Assembly (NCBI RefSeq): GCF_900182635.1
Contig: NZ_FXTD01000002.1
Span: forward strand, 248,001-312,000
DNA: 64,000 nucleotides
Direction of reading: 5' to 3'
From: Halorubrum cibi
Lineage (GTDB): Archaea > Halobacteriota > Halobacteria > Halobacteriales > Haloferacaceae
In this document: positions 1,339 through 38,272 of the stretch, piece by piece
Layout: the number at the start of each line of letters is the position of its first letter
How positions within the stretch are numbered: position 1 is the stretch's first letter
The notes under the pieces: model-generated
Database searches by the model: none
Told to the model about the DNA's origin: nothing
The model's input: the letters and a program-made list of their open reading frames with translations, nothing else
Program-made: the position numbers and the translations under genes

Positions 1339-3138
1339 TCAGTCGTCGCTCGAGGTCGACTGCGGTTCCGCCCGTTTCGTCGTCTCCCCCTCCGCCGCCG
1401 CGATCTTCGTCTCCGGTTCCGTCGTCTCCCCCTCCGCCGCCGCGATCTTCGTCTCCGGTTCCGTCGTCTCCGTGGGCACCGTGAACTCGTCGAGCGTCGC
1501 CAGCAGTTCGGCGGACCGATCGGCGAGTGCGTGGACGTGTCGGGTCACTTCCGAGACCGTCGCCGTCTGTTCCTCGGCCGCAGCCGCGACGGTTTCTGCC
1601 TCCGTCGCGGTCTGCCCGCTGACCGCCGCGATGTCGTCGACCATGTCCACGACCTCCTGTGTCGTCCGAGCCTGGTCGTCGGTCGCGTCGCTTATCTCCT
1701 GGACCGTCTCGTCGACCGTCGTCACGCCCTCGACGACCTCCTCGAACTCGCGGAGGGTGGACTCGATCGTGTCGACGCTTTCCGCCACCTGCGACTCCAT
1801 CGCCTCCACGTCGCCGGCGGCCTCCTCGGAGGCCGCCTGGACCTCCTCGATCCGCCCGGAGATCTCGGCCGCCTCCCCGCGGGTCTCCTCCGCGAGCGAC
1901 TTTACCTCGTCGGCGACGACCGCGAACCCGTTCCCGGAGCCGTTCGCCCGCGCGGCCTCGATCGAGGCGTTGAGCGCGAGCAGGTTCGTCTCCTCCGCGA
2001 TCCCGTCTATCACGGAGGCTATCTCGTCGATCTCGCCGACCCGGTCGACGAGGTCCGCCACCGCGGCGGACACCGCCGCGATCCGCGTCTCGAGCGTCTC
2101 CAGCTCCGCGATCGCCTCCGCGGCCTCCTCTCGGCCCGCGCGCCCGCGGTCGGCCGCGCCGCGGGCGGTTTCGGCGGCGTCGTCCGCCGACGCCGCGATC
2201 TCCTCGACGGTCGCCGACAGCGTGCTCATCTCGCCGGAGACCGCCTCCAACTGGTCGGTCTGGGCGGCCGCGCCGTCCGATATCTCCTGGACCGAGCGGG
2301 CGACCTCCTCGCTCGCGCGGTCTACCTCGTCCATGCTCGCCCGGACGTCGTCGCTCGCGGCCGCGACGTCGCCGGTGAACGACTGGACGTCGCCGACGGT
2401 CCCGCCGAGCGTGGCGACGAGCCGGTTGTAGTTCCCGACGAGCTCGGCGTAGCGCTGCCGGTCGGTCGCCAGCGCGTCGGCGTCGATCGTCGCCGTGAGG
2501 TCTCCGTCCTGTGCGCGCTCCGCGGCATCTCCGAAGGCGTCGACGAGCGACTCGAGCTCCGTCGTGTACGCCTCGAGGTTCGCTGCCATCTCCGAGAGCG
2601 ACTCGCCGAAGGAGCCGGGAACCTCCTCCTCGAGCGCGGGGTCGTCGAACGCCTGAGCGGCGAGCGCCTCCGCCTGCGACGACACGGTTCCGAGGTAGCG
2701 CTGGACCTCGGTGAAGGAGTTCACGAGGCTGCCGATCTCGTCGGGCTGATCGCTGCCGGCGAGCGCGGTGCCGGCGTCTCCGATAGTTCCGGCTCCCGCC
2801 TCACCTCCGCCACCGCCGACGTCCCCGGCCGCTATCGCGTCCGCGCCGGTCTCCAGCTCTCGGAGCGGAGCGACGAAGTCGCGTCGCACGATGAGGAGGG
2901 TGTTGTAGATCGCCACGATCGCGCCGAGGAACAGGGCTCCCGAGACGACGTACGAGAGCGGGCCGGCGAACAGGAACGGCGTGAGGAAGATCGCGACGGT
3001 GACGAGGAACTGGATCCCGACCGCGGTGACGATCTTCCGCTCCATCGACTTCGAGATCCCCAGCCGGTCCATCGTTCCCCAGAGGAGCGACTCGTACCGG
3101 TCCCGGATCCCGGCGCGTCGCTGTCGTGCGGTCGACAT
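1339..3138 (-). CDS. Methyl-accepting chemotaxis-type transducer (Htr family)
   Basis: About 599 residues from the ATG at 3138. Two membrane spans (about 38-58 and 62-84) are separated by only a few residues, so there is no extracytoplasmic sensor domain. A HAMP-like linker and a long helical coiled coil follow, with the conserved signalling hairpin tip ([17 protein letters not shown]), which contacts CheA/CheW. Gln/Glu-rich methylation helices lie on either side. A TATA-like TCATTAC about 27 bases before 3138 favours this start over a GTG at 3174, which would overlap it. The C-terminus holds a 14-residue duplication. It probably senses membrane or cytoplasmic state. Confidence 0.9.
1381..1464 (-). 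repeat. Exact 42-bp tandem duplication in the transducer C-terminus
   Basis: Positions 1381-1422 and 1423-1464 are identical. Each encodes the same 14-residue segment ([14 protein letters not shown]) near the end of the chemotaxis transducer. The reading frame is kept. The perfect identity points to a recent duplication. Confidence 0.95.
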
Positions 3139-3228
3139 ACGGGACGTTCGACGGAACCGGGTAATGAACCTCACCCCGAGGTTATCAGGCTCGATTCTCG
3201 ATTTTCGAACCGTGAGAATCCGGCGGGG

Positions 3229-4212
3229 TCAAAACGGGCCGCCGACGGCGTCTGCGGCGAGGTCGACGCCGGCCTCGAGGTCCGGGCCGAGCGGCGACCC
3301 GACGACCAGTCCGTCCGCGTGTTCTGCCACCGCGCTCGCACGATCGTGGACGGTTTCGGGCGTCCCCGCCATACAGAACGCGTCGATCATCTCGGGGGTC
3401 ACCCGCTCGAAGGCGGCGGAGAAGTCGCCGGCGGAGACGTGCTCGCCGATCGCCGCGGCGGCGTCGCGGTCGATCCCGTGGCGCTTCAGGACGGGCGGGG
3501 CCGCGCCGCCGGCGATGAACGCGACCGGGGGACGGGCCGCCTCGCGGGCCGCCTCGCCGTCCTCGGCGACCGAGACGGCGGCGTAGGCGATCAGATCGAA
3601 GTCGCCCCGCGAGTCGGGCCGGTCGGAGAGCCCGTCGTCGACCTGCTCGCGGGCCCACGCGAGGTCCTTCGGGTGCGAGCCGTTGTACAGCAGGCCGTCG
3701 GCGTGTTTCGCCGCCATCCGACACATGTGCGGCCCCTCGCCGCCGACGTGGACCGGAATCGACGCGCCCTGCGGGGGCTCGTAGTTGAGTCCCGCCTCGC
3801 TGGCGTCGAAGGTCCCCTCGTGGTCGACGCGCTCGCCGGCCCATAATTTTTGAGCGGTCTTGAACGCCTCCAGGACGGAGCGGAGCCCGCGCTCGTCCTC
3901 GAGGCCGAGGTTCCGCAGCGTCGAGGGGTCGCCGGGTCCGATCCCGAAGACGGCGCGCCCATCTGACAGTTCGTCGAGGGTGGCGACCTGCGAGGCGAGC
4001 GTCACGGGATGGGTCTCGTAGGGGTTGGCGACGCCGGGGCCGAGCCGGACTGACTCCGTGGCGGTCGCGAGCCGCGAGAGGACCGCCCACGGGTCGCGGT
4101 TGTTGTAGTGACACGTCGAGTAGACGGCGTCGTAGCCGGCGTCCTCGGCGCGGACGCCGAGGTCGACGATGCGGTTCGGGTCGTGTTCGGGGGTGAGTTC
4201 GATGCCGAGCAT
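3229..4212 (-). CDS. mer: F420-dependent methylenetetrahydromethanopterin reductase-like protein (luciferase-like fold)
   Basis: 327 residues, the usual length of Mer. The N-terminus (MLGIELTPEHDP...VRAEDAGYDAVYSTCHY), the LGPGVANPYETHPV segment and the central HVGGEGPHM segment fit the F420-dependent bacterial luciferase-like family and the Mer subgroup. In methanogens Mer reduces methylene-tetrahydromethanopterin with F420H2. Haloarchaea are not methanogens, so the one-carbon carrier may be a folate or the substrate may differ. It lies 16 bases after cofE, the F420 glutamate ligase, and is probably co-transcribed with it, which supports F420 dependence. Confidence 0.85.
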   Translation of the reverse strand: MLGIELTPEHDPNRIVDLGVRAEDAGYDAVYSTCHYNNRDPWAVLSRLATATESVRLGPGVANPYETHPVTLASQVATLDELSDGRAVFGIGPGDPSTLRNLGLEDERGLRSVLEAFKTAQKLWAGERVDHEGTFDASEAGLNYEPPQGASIPVHVGGEGPHMCRMAAKHADGLLYNGSHPKDLAWAREQVDDGLSDRPDSRGDFDLIAYAAVSVAEDGEAAREAARPPVAFIAGGAAPPVLKRHGIDRDAAAAIGEHVSAGDFSAAFERVTPEMIDAFCMAGTPETVHDRASAVAEHADGLVVGSPLGPDLEAGVDLAADAVGGPF

Positions 4213-4228
4213 TGGTGGTGTCGCGTGG

Positions 4229-4984
4229 CTACGCCTCGTAGTTCCAGTCGCGCAGTGCCTGCCGGACGAAGTCGCCCTCGACCTCGCGGAAGTGACTGTC
4301 CGAGCCGTCGTGGTCGCCGAACGCCCAGTCGCGGACGACGATCACGGGGGTGCCGCCGTCGCCCTCGCCGGCCACGAGGTTGGCGGCCGACGCGAGCTCG
4401 TCGATCACGTTCTGGACGGTGACGCCCATCTCGCGGCCGTCGCGGTCGTGCTCGCCGCGCCAGTCGCGGCTCGCCGGCATGCCGTCCCAGCCGATCGCGA
4501 CCCCGCGCTGGCCGTGGCGGAACGGTCGGCCGCAGGTGTCGGTGACGATCACGCGGTCGGCCGCGAGCCCCTCGCGTATCCGCGCCGCGCTCTCGGAGGG
4601 ACGCTCCGGGAGCAACAGCAGGTCGCCGCCGGGGACGTTCGACCGGTCGATGCCCGCGTTGACGCCGACGTGGCCGAAGCGGGTCGCCGTGAGCAGGAAC
4701 GGGGCCTCCATGATCAGCTCCGTCGACTCCTCGAGGACGGCCTGCGCGAACCGGGGGTCCTTCTCCTCGCCGGATATCTCGGAGAGCCGGTCCGCGATCT
4801 CTCGGGCCCGCGGGCTCGCCAGGAAGTCGTCGAGGTCGAAGGTGCGCCCCTCGGCCTTGGAGACGACGGTGCTGGCCACGACGACGACGTCGTCCTCGCG
4901 GAGGTCGACGCGCTCGTCGACCATGGCCGCGAGGTCGTCTCCCTTCCGGATCTCCGGGAGGTCCGGGACGGCGAACAGCTCCAT
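4229..4984 (-). CDS. cofE: Coenzyme F420-0:L-glutamate ligase CofE
   Basis: 251 residues from the ATG at 4984 (MELFAVPDLPEI). It matches CofE over its full length: the N-terminal VPDLPEIRKGDD, the VVASTVVSKAEGR segment, VGVNAGIDRSNVPGG, and DTCGRPFRHGQRGVAIGWDG. CofE adds gamma-linked glutamates to F420-0 using GTP. The open frame continues upstream to 5278, but that part is in the repeat-rich intergenic element and is compositionally non-coding. A T-rich stretch about 28 bases upstream may be the promoter. It is first in a two-gene operon with the mer-like gene. Confidence 0.93.
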   Translation of the reverse strand: MELFAVPDLPEIRKGDDLAAMVDERVDLREDDVVVVASTVVSKAEGRTFDLDDFLASPRAREIADRLSEISGEEKDPRFAQAVLEESTELIMEAPFLLTATRFGHVGVNAGIDRSNVPGGDLLLLPERPSESAARIREGLAADRVIVTDTCGRPFRHGQRGVAIGWDGMPASRDWRGEHDRDGREMGVTVQNVIDELASAANLVAGEGDGGTPVIVVRDWAFGDHDGSDSHFREVEGDFVRQALRDWNYEA

Positions 4985-5047
4985 ACGCCATCCTGCGCGT
5001 CGGCGAAGAAAAACCCCGCCGGTACCGGGGGCGCTTGACGGTACCCA

Positions 5048-5400
5048 GTGAACCGGATCCGGCGACAGAAGAACATACAAACAGACGCGGTGGCGTGCGC
5101 CGGCGAGCACCGCGAAGCGGTGCGAGCCGCCCGCACGAGGGAGTCGACTGGCCGGAGCGAAGCGGAGGACAGTCGACGAGGCTGGGGAGGCGTGAGGTGC
5201 GGGGCGGTGCTGTGCGGGGCGGTGCTGTGCGGGGTGGGACTCGAAGGGGCAGCCGTGAGGCGGGCGCAGGCGACGCAAGCACTGGAGAGAGTGAGCGAAG
5301 CGAACGACCGAAGCGCACAGCGAGCGTGCGCCCGCCTCACGGCTGGGGCTTTGGAGATCGTCACCGCGCTAGCACTCGTGTACAGCCGAGCGGTTGGGGC
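5048..5400 (+). repeat. Structured GC-rich intergenic element, copy A
   Basis: The 4985-5495 gap holds no convincing gene. It contains nested inverted repeats: GCACCGC/GCGGTGC at 5107-5123, GTCGACTG (5143-5150) with CAGTCGAC (5170-5177), and a perfect 18-bp pair at 5251-5268 and 5327-5344. A 15-bp unit (gcggggcggtgctgt) is tandemly duplicated at about 5199-5228. The stretch GGCGTGAGG...GGGACTCGAAGGGGCAGCC recurs in inverted orientation at about 6075-6127. It could be a non-autonomous mobile element, a structured RNA or a haloarchaeal repeat family. Confidence 0.75.
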
Positions 5401-5465
5401 TTTAGACGTGTCTCTCACCCTCGTCTCCCTCTCGAGATGTGACCGTGCTCTCCCGCTCCGCACAC

Positions 5466-5474
5466 CTTATAAAC
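5466..5474 (+). promoter_or_regulatory. TATA box of tsr3
   Basis: CTTATAAAC lies about 26 bases before the GTG at 5496, the distance expected from an archaeal TATA box to a transcription start. It therefore points to a leaderless mRNA beginning at that GTG rather than at the in-frame ATG at 5439. Confidence 0.75.
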
Positions 5475-5495
5475 GACTCCGCCGATCTCGTACTT

Positions 5496-5999
5496 GTGGA
5501 CCTCCACGTCCGGTACGAGGGTGACGACGACCCCGACAAGTGTACGGCCCGGAAGCTCGCGCGCTTCGATCTCGCGGAACTCCATCGATCGGACCGTTCC
5601 ACCCCGTACGGGGTCGTCCTCAACCCGCACGCCGAGCGGGCGCTCTCGCCGGCGGACGCCGACCTCGCCCGCGAGGAGGCGCTCGTCGCGCTCGACTGCT
5701 CGTGGGAGTCGGCGGGCGAGAAGCAGTTCACCCTACCGGGCGAGCACCGCGCGCTCCCGTACCTCGTCGCCGGAAACCCCGTGAACTTCGGCCGGCCGAT
5801 GCGGCTCACGACCGTCGAGGCGTTCGCGGCCGCGCTCTCGATCCTCGGCGAACCGGATCACGCCGAGCGGGTCATGGCGAAGTTCACGTGGGGTGAGACG
5901 TTCCTCGAACTCAACGAGGAACCCCTCCGGCGGTACGCCGACTGCGAGGACTCAAGCGAGGTCGTCGCGATCCAACAGGAGTACCTCGACCGGGAGTGA
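5496..5999 (+). CDS. tsr3: Tsr3-type 16S rRNA aminocarboxypropyltransferase (DUF367)
   Basis: 167 residues. Family landmarks are all present: [13 protein letters not shown] near the N-terminus, [25 protein letters not shown], the [17 protein letters not shown] core, [16 protein letters not shown], and the C-terminal [19 protein letters not shown]. Tsr3 transfers the aminocarboxypropyl group of S-adenosylmethionine to a hypermodified uridine in small-subunit rRNA. The GTG start at 5496 is chosen from the TATA box; an ATG at 5439 would overlap it. The gene sits between two inverted copies of a repeat element. Confidence 0.93.
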
Positions 6000-6135
6000 G
6001 ACGGTAGAGTATTCGACGTCGCTCGACGGGACGAAGCGAGAGACGTGGGTACGAGGGGGCATCTCCGAAGCCCCCGCCTCCCGGCTGCCCCTTTGCGTCC
6101 CACCCCTCTCGACCGCCCCGCATCCGCACCTCACG
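6000..6135 (-). repeat. Structured GC-rich intergenic element, copy B (inverted relative to copy A)
   Basis: The minus strand of about 6075-6127 matches copy A at about 5186-5262 in order: GGCGTGAGGTGCGG, GGGGCGGT, GGGTGGGAC, AAGGGGCAGCCG and GAGGCGG. A hairpin GGGGGC (6055-6060) / GCCCCC (6070-6075) adjoins it. With copy A it brackets tsr3 in inverted orientation. No open frame in 6000-6186 looks coding. Confidence 0.7.
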
Positions 6136-6186
6136 CCACCGCATGAATCAATTCTCGAAAGATCCGACGGAGCACCGTTCCGGACT

Positions 6187-6549
6187 TCACTCCCCGAGGA
6201 CGCCGCCGATCGCGCCCGCGAGCGCGGAGTCGATCGCGAACAGGAACGTGAGGAAGAGCCCGACGACGAGAACGCCAGCGCCGCCGAGCAGTCCGCCGAG
6301 CGGGCCGCCGGCGAGCCCGACGAGGCCCCCGAACGCCGCGAGCAGCAGCGTGACCACGATCCCGCTCACGGAGCCGGCGAGCAGGCCGTGCCACGTGCCG
6401 GAGAGCAGGCCGCCGCCGGCGACGTAGCCCGCGACGAAGCCGCCGATCAGTCCCGCACCCACGTGCCCGACCACGGGCGCGAACGTCGCCAGCAACCCGG
6501 CGATCACCATGACGACGAACCCGTAGCCGACCGCGCGCCAATCGGTCAT
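6187..6549 (-). CDS. DUF5518-type haloarchaeal membrane protein
   Basis: 120 residues, almost wholly hydrophobic and very rich in Gly and Ala. There are about four membrane spans with glycine-rich turns (GGFVAGYVAGGG, GGLVGLAGGPLGGLLGGAG). This composition and length fit DUF5518, a family common in haloarchaea with no assigned function. The minus strand has a TATA-like GTATTTATTC about 27 bases before the ATG, so the message is probably leaderless. It is divergent from the metal ATPase gene. Confidence 0.75.
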   Translation of the reverse strand: MTDWRAVGYGFVVMVIAGLLATFAPVVGHVGAGLIGGFVAGYVAGGGLLSGTWHGLLAGSVSGIVVTLLLAAFGGLVGLAGGPLGGLLGGAGVLVVGLFLTFLFAIDSALAGAIGGVLGE

Positions 6550-6695
6550 GTCCGACGATAGCCGACCGACGAATAAATACTCGCGGTCGCCGTGCCTAAT
6601 TTATTAAAACATCACCGATAATTGTGAACTACTTATAAATAAATGGCGTAGGATGGCAGGTGGATTAATAACCGTCGGTCGGTTAGGCGTCACCA
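6550..6695 (+). promoter_or_regulatory. Divergent AT-rich promoter region (DUF5518 gene / metal ATPase)
   Basis: This AT-rich gap stands out from its surroundings. ATTAATAA (6664-6671) lies about 26 bases before the ATPase ATG and is the best TATA box for a leaderless message. A second TATA-like CTTATAAATAAA (6632-6643) could serve either strand. GAATAAATAC (6571-6580) read on the minus strand serves the DUF5518 gene. No clear metal-regulator palindrome was found. Confidence 0.6.
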
Positions 6696-9113
6696 ATGAA
6701 CGAACGAAACGGGACGGCCGGCTCCGAGGGCGACGAGCCCGAAGCCGACGCCGCCGGCGCCACCGGTTCCGACGCCACCGGCGCCGAACTCCGACTCACC
6801 GTCCCCGACATGGACTGTGCGTCCTGTGCGGGGAAAGTCGAGGGGGCGCTCGACCGCGCGGGCGTCCTCGCGGTCGACACGCGGCCGACCACCGGGGTCG
6901 TGGTCGTAACCCACGACCCGGCGGTCCTCGACGCCGACGCGATCGTCGCGGCGGTCGAGGGCGCGGGCTACGCCGTCGCCGACGCGGACGCCGACGCGGT
7001 CGCCGACGACCTGTGGCGGAGTCCCCGTGCGATCGCGACCGCGATCGGCGGCGTCTTCCTCGCGGTCGGGCTCGTCCTCGAGTGGCTCCTCCCCGGAGTG
7101 AACCCCGTCTTCGCGACGGTCGGCGAGGGCGTCGGCGTCGTCGGCCCGTGGGAGGCCTCCGGCGCGTCGATCGCGTACCTGCTCGGGATCGCGGCCGCGG
7201 CCCCGCCGATCCTCCGGAACGGCTACTACTCGCTGCGAGGACTGAGCCTCGACATCGACCTCCTGATGTCGATCGGGGTGGTCGCGGCGCTGCTCATCGA
7301 CCTCCCGTTCGAGGCGGCGACGCTGGCGGTGCTGTTCTCGACCGCGGAGCTGTTGGAGCGCTTCTCGATCGACCGCGCGCGCACCTCGTTGCGCGAGCTG
7401 ATGGAGCTCTCGCCCGACGAGGCGGTCGTGATCCGGAACGGCGCGGAGGAGACCGTGCCGACCGCGGCGGTCGCGGTCGGCGAGCGACTCGCCGTCCGGC
7501 CCGGCGAGCGCGTCCCCCTCGACGGGGTCGTCCGCGAGGGATCGGGAGCCGTCGACGAGTCACCGATCACGGGCGAGTCGGTACCCGCGGAGAAGGAGCC
7601 GGGCGACGAGGTGTACGCCGGCTCGATCAACGAGGCGGGCTACCTCGAGGTCGAGGCGACCGTGCCCGCCGAGGAGTCCACCATCGCGAAGGTGGTCGAA
7701 CTCGTCGAGGCCGCGGACGGCGAGGAGACCCGCGCCGAGAGGTTCGTCGACCGGTTCGCGGGCGTCTACACCCCGCTCGTCGTGACCGCCGCGATCGCGA
7801 CGATCGTCCTCGGCACCGTCTTCGTCGGCGGCCCCGCCGAGACGTGGTTCGTCCGCGGGCTCACCCTGCTCGTGATCGCGTGTCCGTGCGCGTTCGTCAT
7901 CTCGACGCCCGTCAGCGTCGTTTCGGGGGTCACCGCCGCCGCGCGCAACGGCGTCCTGATCAAGGGCGGCGAACACCTGGAGGCCGCGGGCGACGTCGAC
8001 GCCGTCGCCGTCGACAAGACGGGGACGCTCACGACCGGCGACCTCGCGGTCACCGACGCCGTCCCGCTCGGCGGGACCGACACCGACGACCTCCTCGCGC
8101 GTGCGACCGCTCTGGAGCGACGGAGCGAACACCCCGTCGCGGAGGCGATCGTGGCGTACGGCGAGGAGCGCGACGAGATCGACGCCGAGAGAGACGACGC
8201 CGACCGAGATGTGACCGGTTTCGAGGCGCTCGCCGGGAAGGGCGTTCGAGCCGAGATCGACGGAGTGGCCCACTACGCCGGCAATCCGTCGCTGTTCGAG
8301 GACCTCGGCTTCGATCTGGGTCACGCCCACGTCAGGACCGACGGCGGGGTCCTCGAGAGGGTTGCGGAGACGAGCGATACCGACGGGATCGACGAGCCCG
8401 AGCCCTGCGAGCACGGGGAGTACCTCGATCTCGCCGGCGAGACGATCCCGCGGCTCCAGGCCGCGGGCAAGACGGTCGTCCTCGTCGGCACCGAGGAGCG
8501 GCTGGAGGGCGTCATCGCGGTCGCCGACACCGTCCGACCGGAGGCGGCGTGGGCGGTCGACCGGCTCCACGCGCTCGGGATCGAGCGCGTCGTGATGCTC
8601 ACCGGCGACAACGAGCGGACCGCCCGCGCGATCGGCGAGGCGGTCGGCGTCGACGAGGTTCGCGCCGAACTGCTCCCGGAGGAGAAAGTCGATGCGGTCC
8701 GCGAGATCGGCGCGGAGAGCGACGGCGGGGTCGCGATGGTCGGCGACGGGATCAACGACGCCCCCGCGCTGGCGGCCGCCGACGTCGGGATCGCGATGGG
8801 CGCGGCCGGCACCGACACCGCCCTCGAGACCGCGGACGTGGCGCTCATGGCCGACGACCTGACCCGGCTCCCGTACGTGATCGACCTCTCGGTGCGCGCC
8901 GGGCGGACGATCCGGACGAACATCGGCGCGTCACTGGCCGTGAAGGCGCTGCTCGCCGCGGGCGCGCCGTTCGGCTACGTCACCGTCGCGATGGCGGTCA
9001 TCGTCGGCGACATGGGGATGAGCCTCGGCGTCACCGGCAACGCGCTCCGGCTCGGGAACGTCGAGCCGGCGGAGCCGCCAGAGGCGACCGCGCCCGCCGA
9101 GACGGTCGAATAG
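6696..9113 (+). CDS. zntA: Heavy-metal translocating P-type ATPase, Zn2+/Cd2+/Pb2+ type (P1B-2)
   Basis: 805 residues. An acidic N-terminal tail is followed by one HMA metal-binding domain with C41-A-S-C44. Paired membrane spans follow, then the TGES actuator loop (292-295) and the CPC transport motif at 396-398 in LLVIACPCAF. The phosphorylation site is D440-KTGTLT, with SEHP in the nucleotide domain and GDGINDAPALAAADVGIAMG in the hinge. The last span has VKALL...VIVGDMGMSL, with the Lys and Asp typical of ZntA-like Zn/Cd exporters and without the Met-Ser pattern of copper pumps. It should export divalent metal ions across the cell membrane using ATP. Confidence 0.93.
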   Translation: MNERNGTAGSEGDEPEADAAGATGSDATGAELRLTVPDMDCASCAGKVEGALDRAGVLAVDTRPTTGVVVVTHDPAVLDADAIVAAVEGAGYAVADADADAVADDLWRSPRAIATAIGGVFLAVGLVLEWLLPGVNPVFATVGEGVGVVGPWEASGASIAYLLGIAAAAPPILRNGYYSLRGLSLDIDLLMSIGVVAALLIDLPFEAATLAVLFSTAELLERFSIDRARTSLRELMELSPDEAVVIRNGAEETVPTAAVAVGERLAVRPGERVPLDGVVREGSGAVDESPITGESVPAEKEPGDEVYAGSINEAGYLEVEATVPAEESTIAKVVELVEAADGEETRAERFVDRFAGVYTPLVVTAAIATIVLGTVFVGGPAETWFVRGLTLLVIACPCAFVISTPVSVVSGVTAAARNGVLIKGGEHLEAAGDVDAVAVDKTGTLTTGDLAVTDAVPLGGTDTDDLLARATALERRSEHPVAEAIVAYGEERDEIDAERDDADRDVTGFEALAGKGVRAEIDGVAHYAGNPSLFEDLGFDLGHAHVRTDGGVLERVAETSDTDGIDEPEPCEHGEYLDLAGETIPRLQAAGKTVVLVGTEERLEGVIAVADTVRPEAAWAVDRLHALGIERVVMLTGDNERTARAIGEAVGVDEVRAELLPEEKVDAVREIGAESDGGVAMVGDGINDAPALAAADVGIAMGAAGTDTALETADVALMADDLTRLPYVIDLSVRAGRTIRTNIGASLAVKALLAAGAPFGYVTVAMAVIVGDMGMSLGVTGNALRLGNVEPAEPPEATAPAETVE

Positions 9114-9173: not shown

Positions 9174-10190
9174 ATGCCCTCCGAGAGCGGTTCCGCCGGG
9201 GAGTCGGTCGAGACGGTCGAGTCGGCCGAATCGACCGACACGGCGGACGCGACCGACGCGGTCGTCGAGTCGACCAGTGGTGCGGACTCCCGGACGACGA
9301 CCGAACCGGATCCGGTATCCGACCCGATCGAGTGGGGACCGGTACGACACGATCGGCTCCGGTCGGTCGCGCTCGGCGTGAGTCTCGTCGTCGCGGTCGG
9401 AATCCTCCTCGTCGCCGGGATCGTCGCCGTCGGCGTGACGGAGGCGGTCTGGACCGCGGCGACCGGCGGCGGGTTCGGCGGGGGAAGCGATCTGTGGGTG
9501 CTCGCGGTGCTCCTCCTCGTCGGCGGCCCGTTCTCGCTTCTCTACCTGCTGATCGCCTACGACCAGTCGACTGAAGAGGCTCGATCGAAGGTCCGGTCGG
9601 CGGTCGGCGACTACTCGCTCTCGCGGGAGTCGATCCGGCCCGCGTGGGTGCTCGCGGGTGCGGTCCCGTTCGGCGCGCTCTGGGTGTGGGGACCCTCGCC
9701 GGCCGAGATCGGGCTGTTCTACCTCTTTCCCCTGATCTGGTTCCTGCCGACCCTCGCCGGGTCGAAGGGAACGTCGGTCCGACTCGATCCCGCAGAGCGC
9801 GTCGTCGAGCGGACGGACCACACGCACGATCGGACCCGGTCCGACGACCTCGAATCCGTGGTCCGGACCCGCCGGATCGACCTGCCGTGGACGACGCTGT
9901 TCCTGTTGGCGTACCGGGGGAATGCCTGGTATCGGTCGACACCGTGGCTGTTCGTCCCGAGGGAGCGGGCCGACGCGGTCGAGGACGCACTCGACGGCGT
10001 TCTCGCCCGCTCTCCGGGCCCCGATCGGGCGAGTGTGCCCGAGCGGGTCACACTCGCGATCCTCGGGAGCAGCTCGCTCGTCGTCGGGCTGGCGATGTCG
10101 ATCGCCGGCGCGGACGGCGGTGGGATCGCGTTGGGTCTGCTCTCCGCGCCGTTCACCCTGCTGTTCTTGGCGCTCGCGGCGCGGCTGTGA
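9174..10190 (+). CDS. Haloarchaeal multi-span membrane protein, unknown function
   Basis: 338 residues. The first 60 or so are acidic and rich in Thr and Ser (low complexity). Membrane spans follow at roughly 63-88, 105-128, 162-205 and 285-338, with a soluble loop between. No domain was recognised. A TATA-like GGTTTAACAG about 30 bases upstream fits a leaderless ATG start at 9174. It follows the metal ATPase on the same strand but has its own promoter, so a functional link is not implied. Confidence 0.7.
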   Translation: MPSESGSAGESVETVESAESTDTADATDAVVESTSGADSRTTTEPDPVSDPIEWGPVRHDRLRSVALGVSLVVAVGILLVAGIVAVGVTEAVWTAATGGGFGGGSDLWVLAVLLLVGGPFSLLYLLIAYDQSTEEARSKVRSAVGDYSLSRESIRPAWVLAGAVPFGALWVWGPSPAEIGLFYLFPLIWFLPTLAGSKGTSVRLDPAERVVERTDHTHDRTRSDDLESVVRTRRIDLPWTTLFLLAYRGNAWYRSTPWLFVPRERADAVEDALDGVLARSPGPDRASVPERVTLAILGSSSLVVGLAMSIAGADGGGIALGLLSAPFTLLFLALAARL

Positions 10191-31505: not shown

Positions 31506-31587
31506 GCCAGGATGGCCGAGTGGTAAGGCGCACGCCTGGAAAGCGTGTTCCCTTCCGGGATCGGGGGTTCAAATCCCTCTCCTGGCG
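31506..31587 (+). tRNA. tRNA-Ser (GGA anticodon)
   Basis: 82 bases folding as a class II tRNA. The acceptor stem GCCAGGA pairs with TCCTGGC, with discriminator G at 31587 as in tRNA-Ser. The anticodon arm ACGCCTGGAAAGCGT gives GGA, reading UCC/UCU. A variable arm lies before the T arm GGGGGTTCAAATCCCTC. CCA is not encoded. A TATA-like ACTTAACA at about 31475-31482 lies 25-30 bases upstream. The 3' end is partly duplicated downstream. Confidence 0.95.
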
Positions 31588-31713
31588 TTTTCGACGAACG
31601 ACACGGCGAGCGGAGCGAGCCGTTCGTCGAAAACCGAGACTGAGGGATTTGAACCAGAGAGTGGAGCGAGCGGAGCGAGCGGAACGACTGAGGTTCAAAT
31701 CCCTCTCCTGGCG
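31587..31713. repeat. tRNA-Ser 3'-end duplications and hairpins (att-like remnant)
   Basis: The 22 bases that end the tRNA (31566-31587, ggttcaaatccctctcctgg + cg) recur exactly at 31692-31713. A 14-base inverted copy (gagggatttgaacc) lies at 31642-31655, so 31642-31705 can form a 14-bp hairpin. Directly after the tRNA a second perfect 14-bp hairpin spans 31587-31600 and 31621-31634, followed by A-rich sequence. This is what remains when an element integrates at a tRNA 3' end and is then deleted, but it may also be a structured terminator. Confidence 0.75.
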
Positions 31714-31837
31714 CTTTTGCTGTCGCAATAACGAACGAGGAGCGGAGCGACGAGTGAGTTCGCGCCGAGCGACGGCGACGGATTTCAACGTCCCTACATA
31801 ATCTTCATATGTGTGGGAAGTGTTGTCACGGGTGACG

Positions 31838-32041: not shown

Positions 32042-34564
32042 CTACTCGCCGAGGATCGACGCGAGCTCGCTCAGCCCCGCCCGCGGGTCGTCCGTGATCG
32101 TCCGTCGCAGCACCTGCCCGATCGTCGACTGCTCGCGATACCACGTCTCCGTCGGCGGCTCGACGATCGCGTTCTCGGCCATGAACCGGATCGCCGGCGC
32201 GTGCGACGCGTACGGCGACGACGACGCGGCGTCTATCGAGAAGGGGTCCCCGTTCATCGTGGGGAGCTGCCCGTTCGCGACGAGCAGCGATCCGACGGCT
32301 TCCGAGCGGAACCCCCGGGCGACCGCGAGCGCCTCGCCGAGCAGTTCCGTGTTGGGGTTGACGACGACGTACTGGCCGTACAGGTTCGTCCGGGACGTGA
32401 CCGATCCCGTGGGCATCGGCATCATGCCGATCGGCTCGGAGTCGCCCTGTACGTCCATCGCGATCGAGGGCGGGAGCAGCGCGGCGACGGCTTCTCCGGT
32501 GCGGAACGCGTTCAGAACCTCGGGGAACCCGTACTCGAGCACGTTCTCGGAGGACGTCTGTTGGACCGGCGGGTCCGCCCGGTCGCCGCCAAGCGCGAGG
32601 TCGTGGAGGACGTTCGCCGCCCGGACGCCCGGCGTGTCCGCGATCGTCACCACGGCGTCGTCTCCGGGTGCCGTGTCCCCGGTCTCGTAGTACGAGCCGC
32701 CGAAGCCGCCGAGCACGCCGGTGAACGCCGGCCGGAGCAGAGGGGGCTGGCCGGTCCAGACGAACCCCTGGTTCTGTCGGGCGGCCGCGACCATCTCCGA
32801 CCACTCCGTCCACGTCGGGGGAGCGGTCATCCACTCGTCGGTGTCGTCGATCCCGGCCTCCTCGAACGGTCGCTTCCGATAGACGATGGGGAAGGGAGCG
32901 AACGAGTACGGTAGCGCGTGGACCTCGCCGTCCTCGGGGTGCCGGGCCGCGGTGTCGAGCGCGGGGAACGACCGGTCCAACACCTCGCCGATCCGATGGT
33001 CGCCCGCGTGCGTCGAGAGCGGCTCGGTCGCTCCCGCCGAGAAGAGCGGGCCGAGTTCCTGGAGGCCGGCGAGCAGCACGTCCGGCTTCGGATCGCCGGC
33101 CTCGATCCGGGAGAGGATCTCGTCGATCGATCTCGAGCCGTCGGTGTCGGACCGGACCTCCACGTCGACGGCGTCGGGAACGTCCGACTCGTCGATCGCT
33201 TCCGGAAGGTCCTGTAGCCACTGGTAGTACCGGGCGTCTACGGTGACGGTCCCGCCCGTGATCTCGGTCGCCGCCTCCTCCTCGGAGGCCGGTTCGGACT
33301 GGGTCTCGGATTCGCTCCCGGTCCCGGATTCGGAGCCCGACCTGGACGCTCCCGTTCCGTCCTCGATCGCCCGAAGCGACGGTTCGTTCCGATCCATCGC
33401 GATGAGTCCGCCCACGCCGACGCCGGCGAGCGCGAACGCGCCGACCCCGTACTTGAGGAACGACCGTCTGGAGCCGCCTCCGTCAGAACCGTCGCCGTCC
33501 GCACCTCCATCGTTCGATCCCGCGCCTCCCGACCCGTCGACGCCTGCGGCCGTGGATTCGGTCGTCCCGTCGTCCGGGTCGTCCGCGTCCGAGCCGTCGT
33601 CGCCCGTCGCGGGTGCGGCGGCGCCCGCGCCCGCGTCCTCGGCCTCCGCCCCGGCGTCCGGCTCGTCGGCGTCGGGCTCCTCGGGAGTCGGGGCGACGGT
33701 CGCGGCGAGCGCGTCCGCCTCGCGGTCGCCCGTGTCGACCATCGGAACGGCGTCGAGGAGGTCCCGGCCGAGAGGGTACGTCGTCGCGTACCGGTCCGCC
33801 GGGTCGCTCTCGGTGGCCCGGGTGACCGGTCGAACCGCTCCCTCCGGGAATTCGTCGCCGAGCGCGTCGGCGTCGATCCCCCCGCGGATCGCGTCGGCCA
33901 GCGCCGCCGGGTCGTCGGCGTCGACGCCGGGGAAGGGAGACCCGTCGCCGAGCGCCGCAGCCGCGAGCGCGCCGATCCGATAGACGTCGGTCCGCTTCGA
34001 GGCGTGGTCGCCCTCGAGCTGTTCGGGCGCGGTGTAAGGGGTCGTCGGGGGGTCCTCGACGAGTCGGCTGAGGCCCCAGTCGTCGACGACCGCGACGGGT
34101 CCGTCGGCGTCGACCCGGAAGGAGAGACAGTCGGGGTGGAGCGCGAGGTGACACGGCGTGGAGCCGTACCGGGAGTAGGTACGGAGGACCTCACACACGT
34201 CGAAGAGCAGTTCGGCTCGCGTCCGCGGGTCGCACGCTCGCGCGGTCTCGAGGGTAGTTCCGGTCGCCCACGCCTCGAGCTCGTCGGGGACGTACTCGAC
34301 GGCGACCCACGGCTCGGGATCGGTCCCCCAGTCGAGCAGCCCCCTGACGGTCCGGCGCTCGTCGACGGTTCCCCACTGACGGGCGAGCGCGTCGAACCGG
34401 TCGTACCGGTCGCCGGGAACCGTCCCGGTCGGCGTCCGGATCGCGACGGGAGACCCCTCCTCGTCCGTCCCGCGATACGTCGTCCACCGGGTCGTCTTCC
34501 CGGCGCGGTCGCCGACCGACCACGTCCCGTTTCGGCCCTCCACGGGGCCTTCGAACCCATCCAT
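32042..34564 (-). CDS. Pseudokinase / membrane span / extracellular solute-binding protein fusion
   Basis: 840 residues. Residues about 20-270 are a protein-kinase-like domain: VAIR (40-43) for the VAIK strand, HLALHPDC (139-146) where HRDLKPEN is expected, D-W-G (162-164) for DFG, and TAPEQ (178-182). The catalytic-loop Asp and Asn are missing, so it is probably a pseudokinase. A Gly/Asp/Ser-rich linker (about 285-365) follows. Then S-R-R-S-F-L-K (365-371), a perfect twin-arginine motif, and a span (372-390). Residues about 436-840 are a MalE-type solute-binding domain. N-inside, C-outside is expected. No permease or ATPase gene is adjacent, so a sensor role is likelier than transport. A TATA box lies about 28 bases upstream. 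Confidence 0.85.
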   Translation of the reverse strand: MDGFEGPVEGRNGTWSVGDRAGKTTRWTTYRGTDEEGSPVAIRTPTGTVPGDRYDRFDALARQWGTVDERRTVRGLLDWGTDPEPWVAVEYVPDELEAWATGTTLETARACDPRTRAELLFDVCEVLRTYSRYGSTPCHLALHPDCLSFRVDADGPVAVVDDWGLSRLVEDPPTTPYTAPEQLEGDHASKRTDVYRIGALAAAALGDGSPFPGVDADDPAALADAIRGGIDADALGDEFPEGAVRPVTRATESDPADRYATTYPLGRDLLDAVPMVDTGDREADALAATVAPTPEEPDADEPDAGAEAEDAGAGAAAPATGDDGSDADDPDDGTTESTAAGVDGSGGAGSNDGGADGDGSDGGGSRRSFLKYGVGAFALAGVGVGGLIAMDRNEPSLRAIEDGTGASRSGSESGTGSESETQSEPASEEEAATEITGGTVTVDARYYQWLQDLPEAIDESDVPDAVDVEVRSDTDGSRSIDEILSRIEAGDPKPDVLLAGLQELGPLFSAGATEPLSTHAGDHRIGEVLDRSFPALDTAARHPEDGEVHALPYSFAPFPIVYRKRPFEEAGIDDTDEWMTAPPTWTEWSEMVAAARQNQGFVWTGQPPLLRPAFTGVLGGFGGSYYETGDTAPGDDAVVTIADTPGVRAANVLHDLALGGDRADPPVQQTSSENVLEYGFPEVLNAFRTGEAVAALLPPSIAMDVQGDSEPIGMMPMPTGSVTSRTNLYGQYVVVNPNTELLGEALAVARGFRSEAVGSLLVANGQLPTMNGDPFSIDAASSSPYASHAPAIRFMAENAIVEPPTETWYREQSTIGQVLRRTITDDPRAGLSELASILGE

Positions 34565-34778
34565 ACGCCGTCGTTTTCGGTGCCGCCTAATAACGAATGG
34601 GCATCGATCTCACGAGTGGTATACGTGTTATAAAGCGACCCTTTCGAGGTCGCGGACACCGAAGAACATCCATGAGAATAGTCAACATTATACTCAACCT
34701 GTGGGCACGCTGTCGTCGAGTTTCGTCGTCAAACCGGTCGTCGCTGCCGACGGTTCCATCGGAGTCGCTTGCGATGGA

Positions 34779-36472: not shown

Positions 36473-36811
36473 GCTCCGGCAGGTAAGACTCACACGGATC
36501 CCGTCCACCACCGACCGCCGAACCGCGTCAGTCGAACGACGTTCGGACCCGCTTCCCGACGTTTCGCTTTTCGATGTTTCGCTGACCGATACCGCCAGCG
36601 TTGCCTCCGCGTCACCACGCGTCCGACCTCTCCCTTCCGATTCGAATCGAGCCGTCGAACCGTCTCACGCCGTCGTGCCGTTTTGTGTGGCCGTTTCGTG
36701 TGACCGCTTCGCGTGATCGTTTCGATCCGCCGTCCGCCGCGGAGGGAGTCCGTTACAGATCGTGATAATCGGCGCCGAAACGTCTTGTGTCGGCGGTGTG
36801 ATCTCCGGACA
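36473..36811. other. Intergenic region with T-rich imperfect repeats
   Basis: No gene is supported here. T-rich patches at about 36560-36590 may end the thermosome transcript. At 36675-36726 four imperfect 12-13-base units (gtgccgttttgt, gtggccgtttcgt, gtgaccgcttcgc, gtgatcgtttcga) follow each other. The minus-strand frame across this gap gives an Arg-rich peptide that looks non-coding. GTGATAATC at about 36763 may be the promoter of the kinase gene. Confidence 0.5.
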
Positions 36812-38272
36812 ATGTCTGGATCGACAGACATCTCCGTACTCTACGTCAACGACGGTCCTGAACTCCTCCAGTTGGTCGCTCGACGGCTCGAGCGCGAGGA
36901 CGATCGGATCGGCGTTCGAACGGCCGAGTCGGTCGACGCGGCGGAGGGAGTCCGCTCGCGTCACGACGTCGACTGTATCATGAGCGATCACCACATGCCG
37001 GGCCGGACCGGCCTCGAATACCTCCGGTCGCTCCGCGGGAACGACGACGGGATCCCGTTCATCCTCTTCACCGAAACGGGCGACGAAGCGGTCGCGAGCG
37101 AGGCCATCTCCGCCGACGTCACCGACTACGTCATTCACCGGGCGATCGGTGACCCCTCCCCGCTTCTGGCGCGAAAGGTGTGCTCGGCCGTCGAACACCG
37201 ACGGACCAAGCGGCGGATGGACCGAACGGCCCGACAGCTCCGGTCGGTCGCCGAGGCGACCAACGACGCGCTGTGGATCTTCTCGGCGGACTGGGGGGAG
37301 CTCCACTTCATCAACTCCGCGTACGAGAGCGTCTTCGGGCAGCCGGCCGCGGAGCTCCGGGCGGAGCCGCGATCGTTTCTCGATCGGGTACACCACGAGG
37401 ACACCGACCGCGTCGAGCGGGCGATGGCCCGCGCTTCGAGCGGGGAGCACGTCCGGATCGAGTACCGCGTGAACAAGTCCACGGAACTCCAGTCGTGGGT
37501 CGAATCGCGGTGTACGCCGGTCACCGACGACGAGGGAGAAACCGATTTCATCAGCGGGTTCAGCCGGGAGATAACCGATCGGAAGTACTACGAAGCGAGC
37601 CTCGTCGAGAAGAACGAGCAGTTGGAACAGTTCGCGTCGAGGGTCGCACACGACCTGCGTAACCCGCTGAACGTCGCCGACGGGAACGTCGACCTCGCGA
37701 GGGAGGACGACGACGGTCCCTACCTCGAGACCACCGCCCGGGCGCTCGCGCGGATGGACGACCTCATCGACGACCTCCTGACGCTCGCGAAGCGAGGAGC
37801 GACGATCGACGAACTGTCGCCGATCGGGTTCGAATCGCTGGTTCGCTCCTCGACCGAGAACCTCCTCTTTCCGGATTCGACCCTCGAGATCGTCGGATCG
37901 GGGACAATCCGGTGTGACCCGGCTCGGACGAGGGAGGCGCTGGAGAACCTCTTCCGTAACGCGCTCGATCACGGCGGTGAGGCGGTGACCATCACCGTGG
38001 GCGTGCTCGAGGTGAGAAACGGGTTCTACGTCGAGGACGACGGACCGGGAATCGACCCGTCCGACCGCGAGACCGTCTTCGAGCGGGGCCATACCATCTC
38101 CGAGCACGGCAGCGGCCTCGGGCTCGCGATCGTCGACCGGATCGTCACGGCACACGGCTGGGAGATCGAGATCGCGGAGGGGGCCGACGGCGGCGCGCGT
38201 TTCGAGATCGTTGGTCCCGATCTCGACCCGACCGAAGCCGCCGATCCGAAGCCGGCCGAATCCGGGACGTAG
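36812..38272 (+). CDS. Hybrid sensor histidine kinase: degenerate receiver, PAS, HisKA, HATPase
   Basis: 486 residues from the ATG at 36812. Residues 7-125 are a receiver-like domain with the phospho-acceptor Asp59 (DCIMSDHHMPG), but the first acidic pair is N13-D14 and the conserved Lys is His109 (TDYVIHR). A PAS domain follows (about 142-255). The phosphorylation His280 is in ASRVAHDLRNPLN. The ATPase domain has the N-box LFRNALDHGG, G1 DDGPGID and G2 GSGLGLAIV. No membrane span, so it is a soluble sensor. A receiver-PAS protein lies 5.5 kb downstream and might be a partner. Confidence 0.93.
   Translation: MSGSTDISVLYVNDGPELLQLVARRLEREDDRIGVRTAESVDAAEGVRSRHDVDCIMSDHHMPGRTGLEYLRSLRGNDDGIPFILFTETGDEAVASEAISADVTDYVIHRAIGDPSPLLARKVCSAVEHRRTKRRMDRTARQLRSVAEATNDALWIFSADWGELHFINSAYESVFGQPAAELRAEPRSFLDRVHHEDTDRVERAMARASSGEHVRIEYRVNKSTELQSWVESRCTPVTDDEGETDFISGFSREITDRKYYEASLVEKNEQLEQFASRVAHDLRNPLNVADGNVDLAREDDDGPYLETTARALARMDDLIDDLLTLAKRGATIDELSPIGFESLVRSSTENLLFPDSTLEIVGSGTIRCDPARTREALENLFRNALDHGGEAVTITVGVLEVRNGFYVEDDGPGIDPSDRETVFERGHTISEHGSGLGLAIVDRIVTAHGWEIEIAEGADGGARFEIVGPDLDPTEAADPKPAESGT

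Follow-up and report, generated by a model that had tools for sequence, protein, structure and literature searches.

A predicted pseudokinase joined to a solute-binding domain through an internal twin-arginine motif in Halorubrum: a candidate single-polypeptide membrane receptor

Results and discussion

The reading frame and its locus

The analysed window comprises 64,000 nucleotides of Halorubrum cibi (contig NZ_FXTD01000002.1, positions 248,001 to 312,000), and all coordinates below refer to it unless another region is named. Its minus strand carries an open reading frame (32042–34564) that starts with ATG, runs from 34564 down to 32042 and encodes 840 residues. In order, these residues form a Hanks-type pseudokinase domain (residues 1–280; 33725–34564), an acidic, fast-evolving linker (residues 281–364; 33473–33724), a Tat-type anchor with an internal twin-arginine (RR) motif (residues 365–390; 33395–33472), a predicted extracellular stalk (residues 391–431; 33272–33394) and a MalE/TMBP-type solute-binding domain (residues 432–840; 32045–33271), all on the minus strand. 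A preceding sequence-only reading of this DNA had proposed such a fusion of kinase-like domain, linker, anchor and binding domain in a single frame, and each part was located where it had been placed. A TATA-like TTTATAAC (34627–34634, minus strand), as read from the sequence, precedes the start codon by about 60 nt; it falls within the gap that separates the frame from the divergently oriented thermosome gene.

The annotated neighbours include genes for pelota, a DUF4013 protein, a hydrolase, a thiamine-binding protein, a DUF7577 protein, RidA, tRNA-Ser, a thermosome subunit and a histidine kinase, among others. None of the adjoining genes encodes a permease or an ABC ATPase, in agreement with the initial assessment. 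Nor was a co-located partner gene found: genomes that lack the fusion gene have the same tRNA-Ser, RidA and thermosome neighbours as those that carry it. The thermosome gene is immediately followed downstream by one for a histidine kinase (36713–38272, plus strand) that combines a PAS domain with a receiver domain at its N-terminus and is present in nearly all orthologue loci.

The fusion was found in nine of 52 Halorubrum genomes, and eight complete sequences were aligned; carriers named are Halorubrum halodurans, H. alkaliphilum, H. rubrum, H. aquaticum, strain 48-1-W and a strain labelled Halobellus captivus. In the carriers the gene sits between the genes for h89-RidA and the thermosome subunit, with only the thermosome side in common in one of them (L005). 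Most of the non-carriers that were fetched show only a short gap between these two genes, so that a single gene is present or absent at this one position. An apparent split into two genes in the ninth carrier (G311) was rejected, the break being a stretch of N in the assembled sequence. Behind the tRNA-Ser(GGA) gene (31506–31587) lie an inverted 14-nt piece (31642–31655) and a 26-nt repeat of the tRNA 3′ end with 96% identity (31692–31717). Integration at this tRNA was considered as the origin of the gene and discarded, as non-carriers have the 3′-end copies too and no copy occurs beyond the far side of the gene. As similar copies occur with and without the gene, the repeats appear to mark an old site of integration unrelated to the fusion. 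A plasmid search did not return the whole fusion.

The N-terminal kinase-like domain

In Pfam, the fusion protein gives a sub-threshold Pkinase score (E 0.006). As Pfam and NCBIfam alone left the assignment below threshold, a fold comparison was needed. The AlphaFold model of residues 1–284, folded with 13 relatives, has a pLDDT of 87 and a pTM of 0.86, and the experimental structures closest to it are those of bacterial Hanks kinases. The best match in VIA-align is PknA of M. tuberculosis (4ow8; Z 24.4, 254 aligned, rmsd 3.0), further matches being Stk1 (Z 23.5) and PknB (Z 23.4). The kinase fold that had been suggested for residues 1–280 is supported by these values.

The catalytic residues of this fold are largely replaced. 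Alignment of the eight complete orthologues shows Arg in place of the β3 lysine, Lys43 of VAIK, in every copy (VAIR, residues 40–43; 34436–34447), while HLALHPDC (residues 139–146; 34127–34150) marks the catalytic loop, in which the HRD aspartate, Asp141, is Ala or Gly and Asn146 is Cys in all eight. The position of the αC glutamate, residue 60, is Leu in the window protein (34385–34387), as judged by comparison with intact and degenerate relatives, and no GxGxxG loop was found in the orthologue alignment. By contrast, the DFG equivalent DWG (residues 162–164; 34073–34081) and APE (residues 179–181; 34022–34030) are kept, and Asp162 of DWG is retained in all orthologues. The sequence-only reading had correctly noted the exchange of the HRD aspartate next to preserved DWG and APE motifs, and indeed no orthologue has an intact HRD loop and no complete copy is split into two genes; it underestimated the extent of the loss, as the changes at Lys43, the Glu60 position and Asn146 had been missed. 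Its suggestion that the domain may bind nucleotide did not hold up: because the Lys–Glu pair, the Gly-rich loop and the asparagine are gone, with only DWG and APE left, nucleotide binding appears doubtful.

A comparison with 140 haloarchaeal domains of the same kinase-like family places these losses in context. Asp141, Asn146 and Asp162 are retained in 47 of them, nearly always together with Lys43 and Glu60 (the latter in 44 of the 46 intact relatives that have a residue at this position). In the remaining 93 degenerate domains Lys43, Glu60 and Asp141 were mostly lost together (kept in five, four and five domains, respectively), while Asp162 persists in 56. The approximate 2 : 1 ratio of degenerate to intact domains is not a census, as most of the queries used to collect the domains were themselves degenerate. 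In a tree of 70 domains, the group that contains the window family is mainly degenerate (SH-aLRT 94) and separate from that of the intact domains, and the labels change six times as compared to 23 times in shuffles.

Selection was estimated with the Nei–Gojobori method on 21 orthologue pairs, giving dN/dS values of 0.17 for the kinase domain, 0.38 for the anchor, 0.53 for the binding domain, 0.55 for the stalk and 0.67 for the linker. The kinase domain is the most constrained part of the protein even though it is predicted to be catalytically dead, and this speaks for a functional role other than catalysis. It combines a kinase fold, at least one missing catalytic motif and purifying selection, the features of a pseudokinase, and is predicted from model and alignment to be a Hanks fold devoid of catalytic capacity. 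The low dN/dS could also reflect another type of catalysis, for example SelO-like nucleotidyl transfer via the DWG aspartate, in line with the occurrence of Asp162 in all orthologues and in over half of the degenerate domains. However, some degenerate domains lack Asp162, and the joint loss of the β3 lysine, the αC glutamate, the HRD aspartate and the asparagine, together with the missing GxGxxG loop, makes this very unlikely. Gene decay, i.e. an accidental fusion heading for loss, would be compatible with the small number of carriers among the Halorubrum genomes. It is hardly credible given that all eight complete copies are open, that the ninth is interrupted solely by an assembly gap, that the kinase domain is under such strong constraint, and that even copies with no more than 54% identity preserve the domain order and the anchor motif.

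The internal anchor

The motif SRRSFLK occupies residues 365–371 of the fusion, and no membrane span precedes residue 365. SRRS[FL]LK[YA]G is invariant among the eight complete orthologues; the span behind it is rich in Gly and weakly hydrophobic, with a Kyte–Doolittle value of 1.73 in the window protein. Shuffling gives a probability of 0.3% for an RR ahead of the anchor by chance in this protein, while it was observed in all eight copies. One weakly hydrophobic span after the RR motif is, by sequence, what an internal Tat anchor would look like; the h-regions of Tat signals have lower hydrophobicity and more glycine (PMC7317946). The N-terminal lipoprotein or secretory signal of an ABC solute-binding protein is replaced here by an internal signal, and the lipobox cysteine is absent from the fusions, in which the alignment shows LAG-Val/Ile or similar instead of LAG-Cys. 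Conversely, a lipobox was detected in 22 free-standing binding-protein relatives, every one of which is a Tat lipoprotein of the SRRxF..AGC type. It is plausible that the anchor of the fusion arose from such a lipoprotein signal that turned into an uncleaved anchor.

For the architecture survey, 100 regions with other members of the kinase-like family were fetched. Ten kinase-first architectures have an RR at the anchor, with a chance probability of 0–2.5% for each by shuffling. Their spans mostly range between 1.3 and 1.8 in hydrophobicity, the exception being L086 (2.16). Kinase-first relatives that lack the RR, i.e. the CarboxypepD type (L070, L071) and L089, have strongly hydrophobic spans (2.4–2.5). 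A Tat-type motif behind a folded domain had been called unusual, which holds in general; as a one-off it does not, since the arrangement is recurrent among haloarchaea.

Alternatively, the two arginines may represent ordinary positive-inside charge, with the span inserted by Sec and the internal motif meaningless as a Tat signal. Sec insertion, too, needs one span flanked by positive charge in the cytosol. We consider this quite unlikely: the full x-R-R-x-hydrophobic-hydrophobic consensus is present, low hydrophobicity and high glycine content match Tat h-regions (PMC7317946), the motif is invariant in the orthologues and recurs across the ten architectures, the CarboxypepD paralogues without it have the more hydrophobic spans, and the same motif is a true Tat lipoprotein signal in the free-standing homologues. 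As Sec insertion concerns one step only, the confidence assigned to it overlaps with that of the other alternatives. The preferred assignment, an internal Tat-type anchor, has a partial counterpart in the actinobacterial Rieske protein Sco2149, a dual Sec–Tat substrate (PMC5449189). Both have an uncleaved internal Tat signal, predicted in the case of the fusion, with a weakly hydrophobic span and an exported C-terminal domain; the RR of Sco2149 follows Sec-inserted spans, whereas in the fusion the RR is preceded by a folded soluble domain and by no membrane span.

The outer solute-binding domain

Pfam assigns SBP_bac_1 to residues 466–740 (E 4e-11). The model of the outer domain has a pLDDT of 92 with the two-lobed fold fully kept, and it matches MalE3 of Thermotoga (6dtr; Z 41.5) and the trehalose/maltose-binding protein TMBP of Thermococcus litoralis (1eu8; Z 37.8), which share its fold; a profile search likewise returned 1eu8 at E 2e-54. 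The fold of a MalE-type protein, as initially proposed, is therefore well supported, while the attribution to sugar is not, as the pocket motifs are all replaced. Five motifs are near-invariant in 22 transporter-type relatives (MD[SN]GW, CCxF, RNW, GGW and [PA]RP), and every one is replaced in all eight fusions. Four of the five (D..W, RNW, GGW and PRP) align with 1eu8 as well and presumably surround the sugar there. TMBP and the haloarchaeal transporter proteins hence have pocket motifs in common that differ from those of the fusion. The first pocket loop also varies between the fusion orthologues, and other positions of the outer domain are invariant among them. Replacement of the five conserved motifs indicates that the ligand was changed or that binding was lost; judging from the alignment, the ligand of the fusion probably differs from that of the transporter relatives. 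Three free-standing relatives were examined, each with an adjoining permease gene and one also with a gene for a MalK-type ATPase.

Exchange of outer domains among related proteins

The RR-anchored design recurs with a variety of ectodomains. In addition to SBP_bac_1 in the window family, Pfam identified PBP_like_2, i.e. a PstS-like domain (L082, E 7e-25), SBP_bac_5 (L088, 3e-60), the LivJ-like Peripla_BP_6 (L079, 5e-30), Copper-bind (twice in L095, and in L197), Laminin_G_3 (L199) and PQQ propellers (L195 and L205); no named ectodomain was detected by Pfam in L086. The RR-anchored proteins of L095, L197 and L199 have intact kinases. In L205, a PQQ receptor (3194–5245, plus strand) has a kinase-like domain that has lost nearly every motif, yet retains the RR anchor. 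Among the window-type orthologues, three out of eight (L006, L007 and L008) have a halocyanin domain in the stalk, between span and binding domain. As these three do not form one clade in the kinase tree, it was probably gained or lost more than once. Copper-bind E values are 2e-11 in L006 and 2e-13 in L008, and the copper ligands H, C, H and M are apparently complete by sequence.

The composition of this set bears on the main rival to a ligand-sensing receptor, namely that the outer domain was captured as a scaffold or as an adhesion-like surface domain, with the protein tying a cytosolic partner to the envelope and sensing no small molecule. The replacement of all five transporter motifs in every fusion and the elevated dN/dS of the binding domain would fit a scaffold, and the ectodomains of relatives include types other than classical ligand sensors (CarboxypepD_reg, LamG and the PQQ propeller). 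Yet SBP_bac_5, PstS-like and LivJ-like domains in other members point to solute binding, the two-lobed fold is intact, and other positions are invariant among the fusions. We therefore regard a non-sensing scaffold as unlikely, albeit as the alternative that carries the most weight. Ligand sensing is the preferred function of the outer domain. The exchangeable domains seen so far comprise four solute-binding families, halocyanin, the PQQ propeller and LamG. They may belong to a modular class of single-span receptors in haloarchaea, in which a folded kinase or pseudokinase stays in the cytosol, an internal Tat signal exports a pre-folded, exchangeable sensor, and the inner domain signals without phosphorylation in most members found; we put this generalisation forward tentatively, at slightly below even confidence.

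Proposed mechanism and signalling context

For the window protein itself, we favour with some confidence a single-polypeptide, ligand-sensing and non-phosphorylating membrane receptor. The model builds on the computed domains, loss of catalytic residues, anchor conservation, purifying selection and recurrence with other ectodomains, from which we infer Tat dependence, topology, ligand, partner and signalling direction. Residues 1–280 would form a cytosolic, catalytically inert domain with the fold of a Hanks kinase. The Tat-type signal in the middle of the protein would export the C-terminal binding domain and remain as single membrane anchor with N-in/C-out topology. Binding of a small molecule to the outer domain would close its two lobes, and the span would transmit this closure to the pseudokinase, which would act by binding a partner protein instead of by phosphorylation.

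A partner kinase encoded elsewhere in the same genome was considered and dropped, nothing exceeding the Pfam cut-off. In this genome, which is 99.5% complete, Pfam gave no Pkinase above its cut-off, no FHA and no PP2C_2 domain. Partners of phospho-Ser/Thr signalling are thus not apparent, which fits an output by protein contact. The absence of FHA and PP2C_2 would be compatible with the presence of other phosphatases or readers.

Comparison with known systems

Each part of the design has a precedent. For mycobacteria, control of a kinase by a solute-binding protein has been described, as have single polypeptides that unite the two (PMC6069109). The actinobacterial SBP-kinases (MSMEG_1200 and relatives; PMC6069109), to which the fusion is likened by description, also combine a kinase fold and a solute-binding domain in one chain, so that the parallel drawn earlier is justified; the fusion differs in being archaeal, in lacking the catalytic residues and in its internal Tat-type anchor. 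In the GlnH–GlnX–PknG system of mycobacteria and corynebacteria (PMC6069109, PMC9769921), a solute-binding protein likewise informs a cytosolic Hanks kinase, although three separate proteins and an active kinase are involved there, as compared to one polypeptide with a degenerate kinase. According to the parts of the EssB/YukC report consulted (PMC9600267), that protein resembles the fusion in its N-terminal pseudokinase, single span and extracellular domain, and in its degraded Gly loop, VAIK and catalytic motifs, and serves as precedent for a membrane pseudokinase that acts by protein contacts. It belongs to type VIIb secretion, its ectodomain is unrelated to that of the fusion, and those parts describe no Tat motif. 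Finally, the bacterial pseudokinases ActPs1–3, GLW, CP1, DYD and DLHK have a Hanks fold with all or some catalytic motifs diverged, and in some of these families a span lies C-terminal to the kinase (PMC12599244). Internal Tat anchors complete the list of precedents.

The literature searched yielded no archaeal family that combines these parts and has exchangeable ectodomains. The haloarchaeal DWG set with swapped ectodomains is not found in the bacterial pseudokinase classification (PMC12599244), and a composite-gene survey of haloarchaea (PMC5992828) leaves kinases unmentioned. A literature search that covered few subscription journals returned no description of haloarchaeal pseudokinases, of this fusion or of internal Tat kinases. 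If the proposed receptor is correct, signalling by a dead kinase would operate in archaea, in a genome in which no canonical Hanks kinase, FHA or PP2C_2 was found, and the known Tat topologies would be extended to an anchor behind a folded soluble domain. The matched receptors, which differ in ectodomain, in the presence of the RR and in whether the kinase is intact or dead, are a natural test bed for pseudokinase function.

Clustering of kinase-like genes

Further members of the family were observed in the same genome on contig C7 (region L070). A degenerate, kinase-first protein with CarboxypepD_reg repeats and a plain span (9326–10138, minus strand) is encoded close to a PQQ propeller with a C-terminal degenerate kinase-like domain (4392–7144, plus strand). 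In region L002, a 468-residue protein (2533–3939, minus strand) lies beside a CarboxypepD pseudokinase; it has a similar span and repeats and no kinase domain, and looks as if it were a duplicate of the ectodomain half alone. Clusters of several such kinases within 20–70 kb occur in L072 and L073 (G215), L094 and L095 (G051) and L211–L213 (G059). These clusters mix PQQ, multi-span and soluble architectures, and a Halarchaeum plasmid has seven kinase places.
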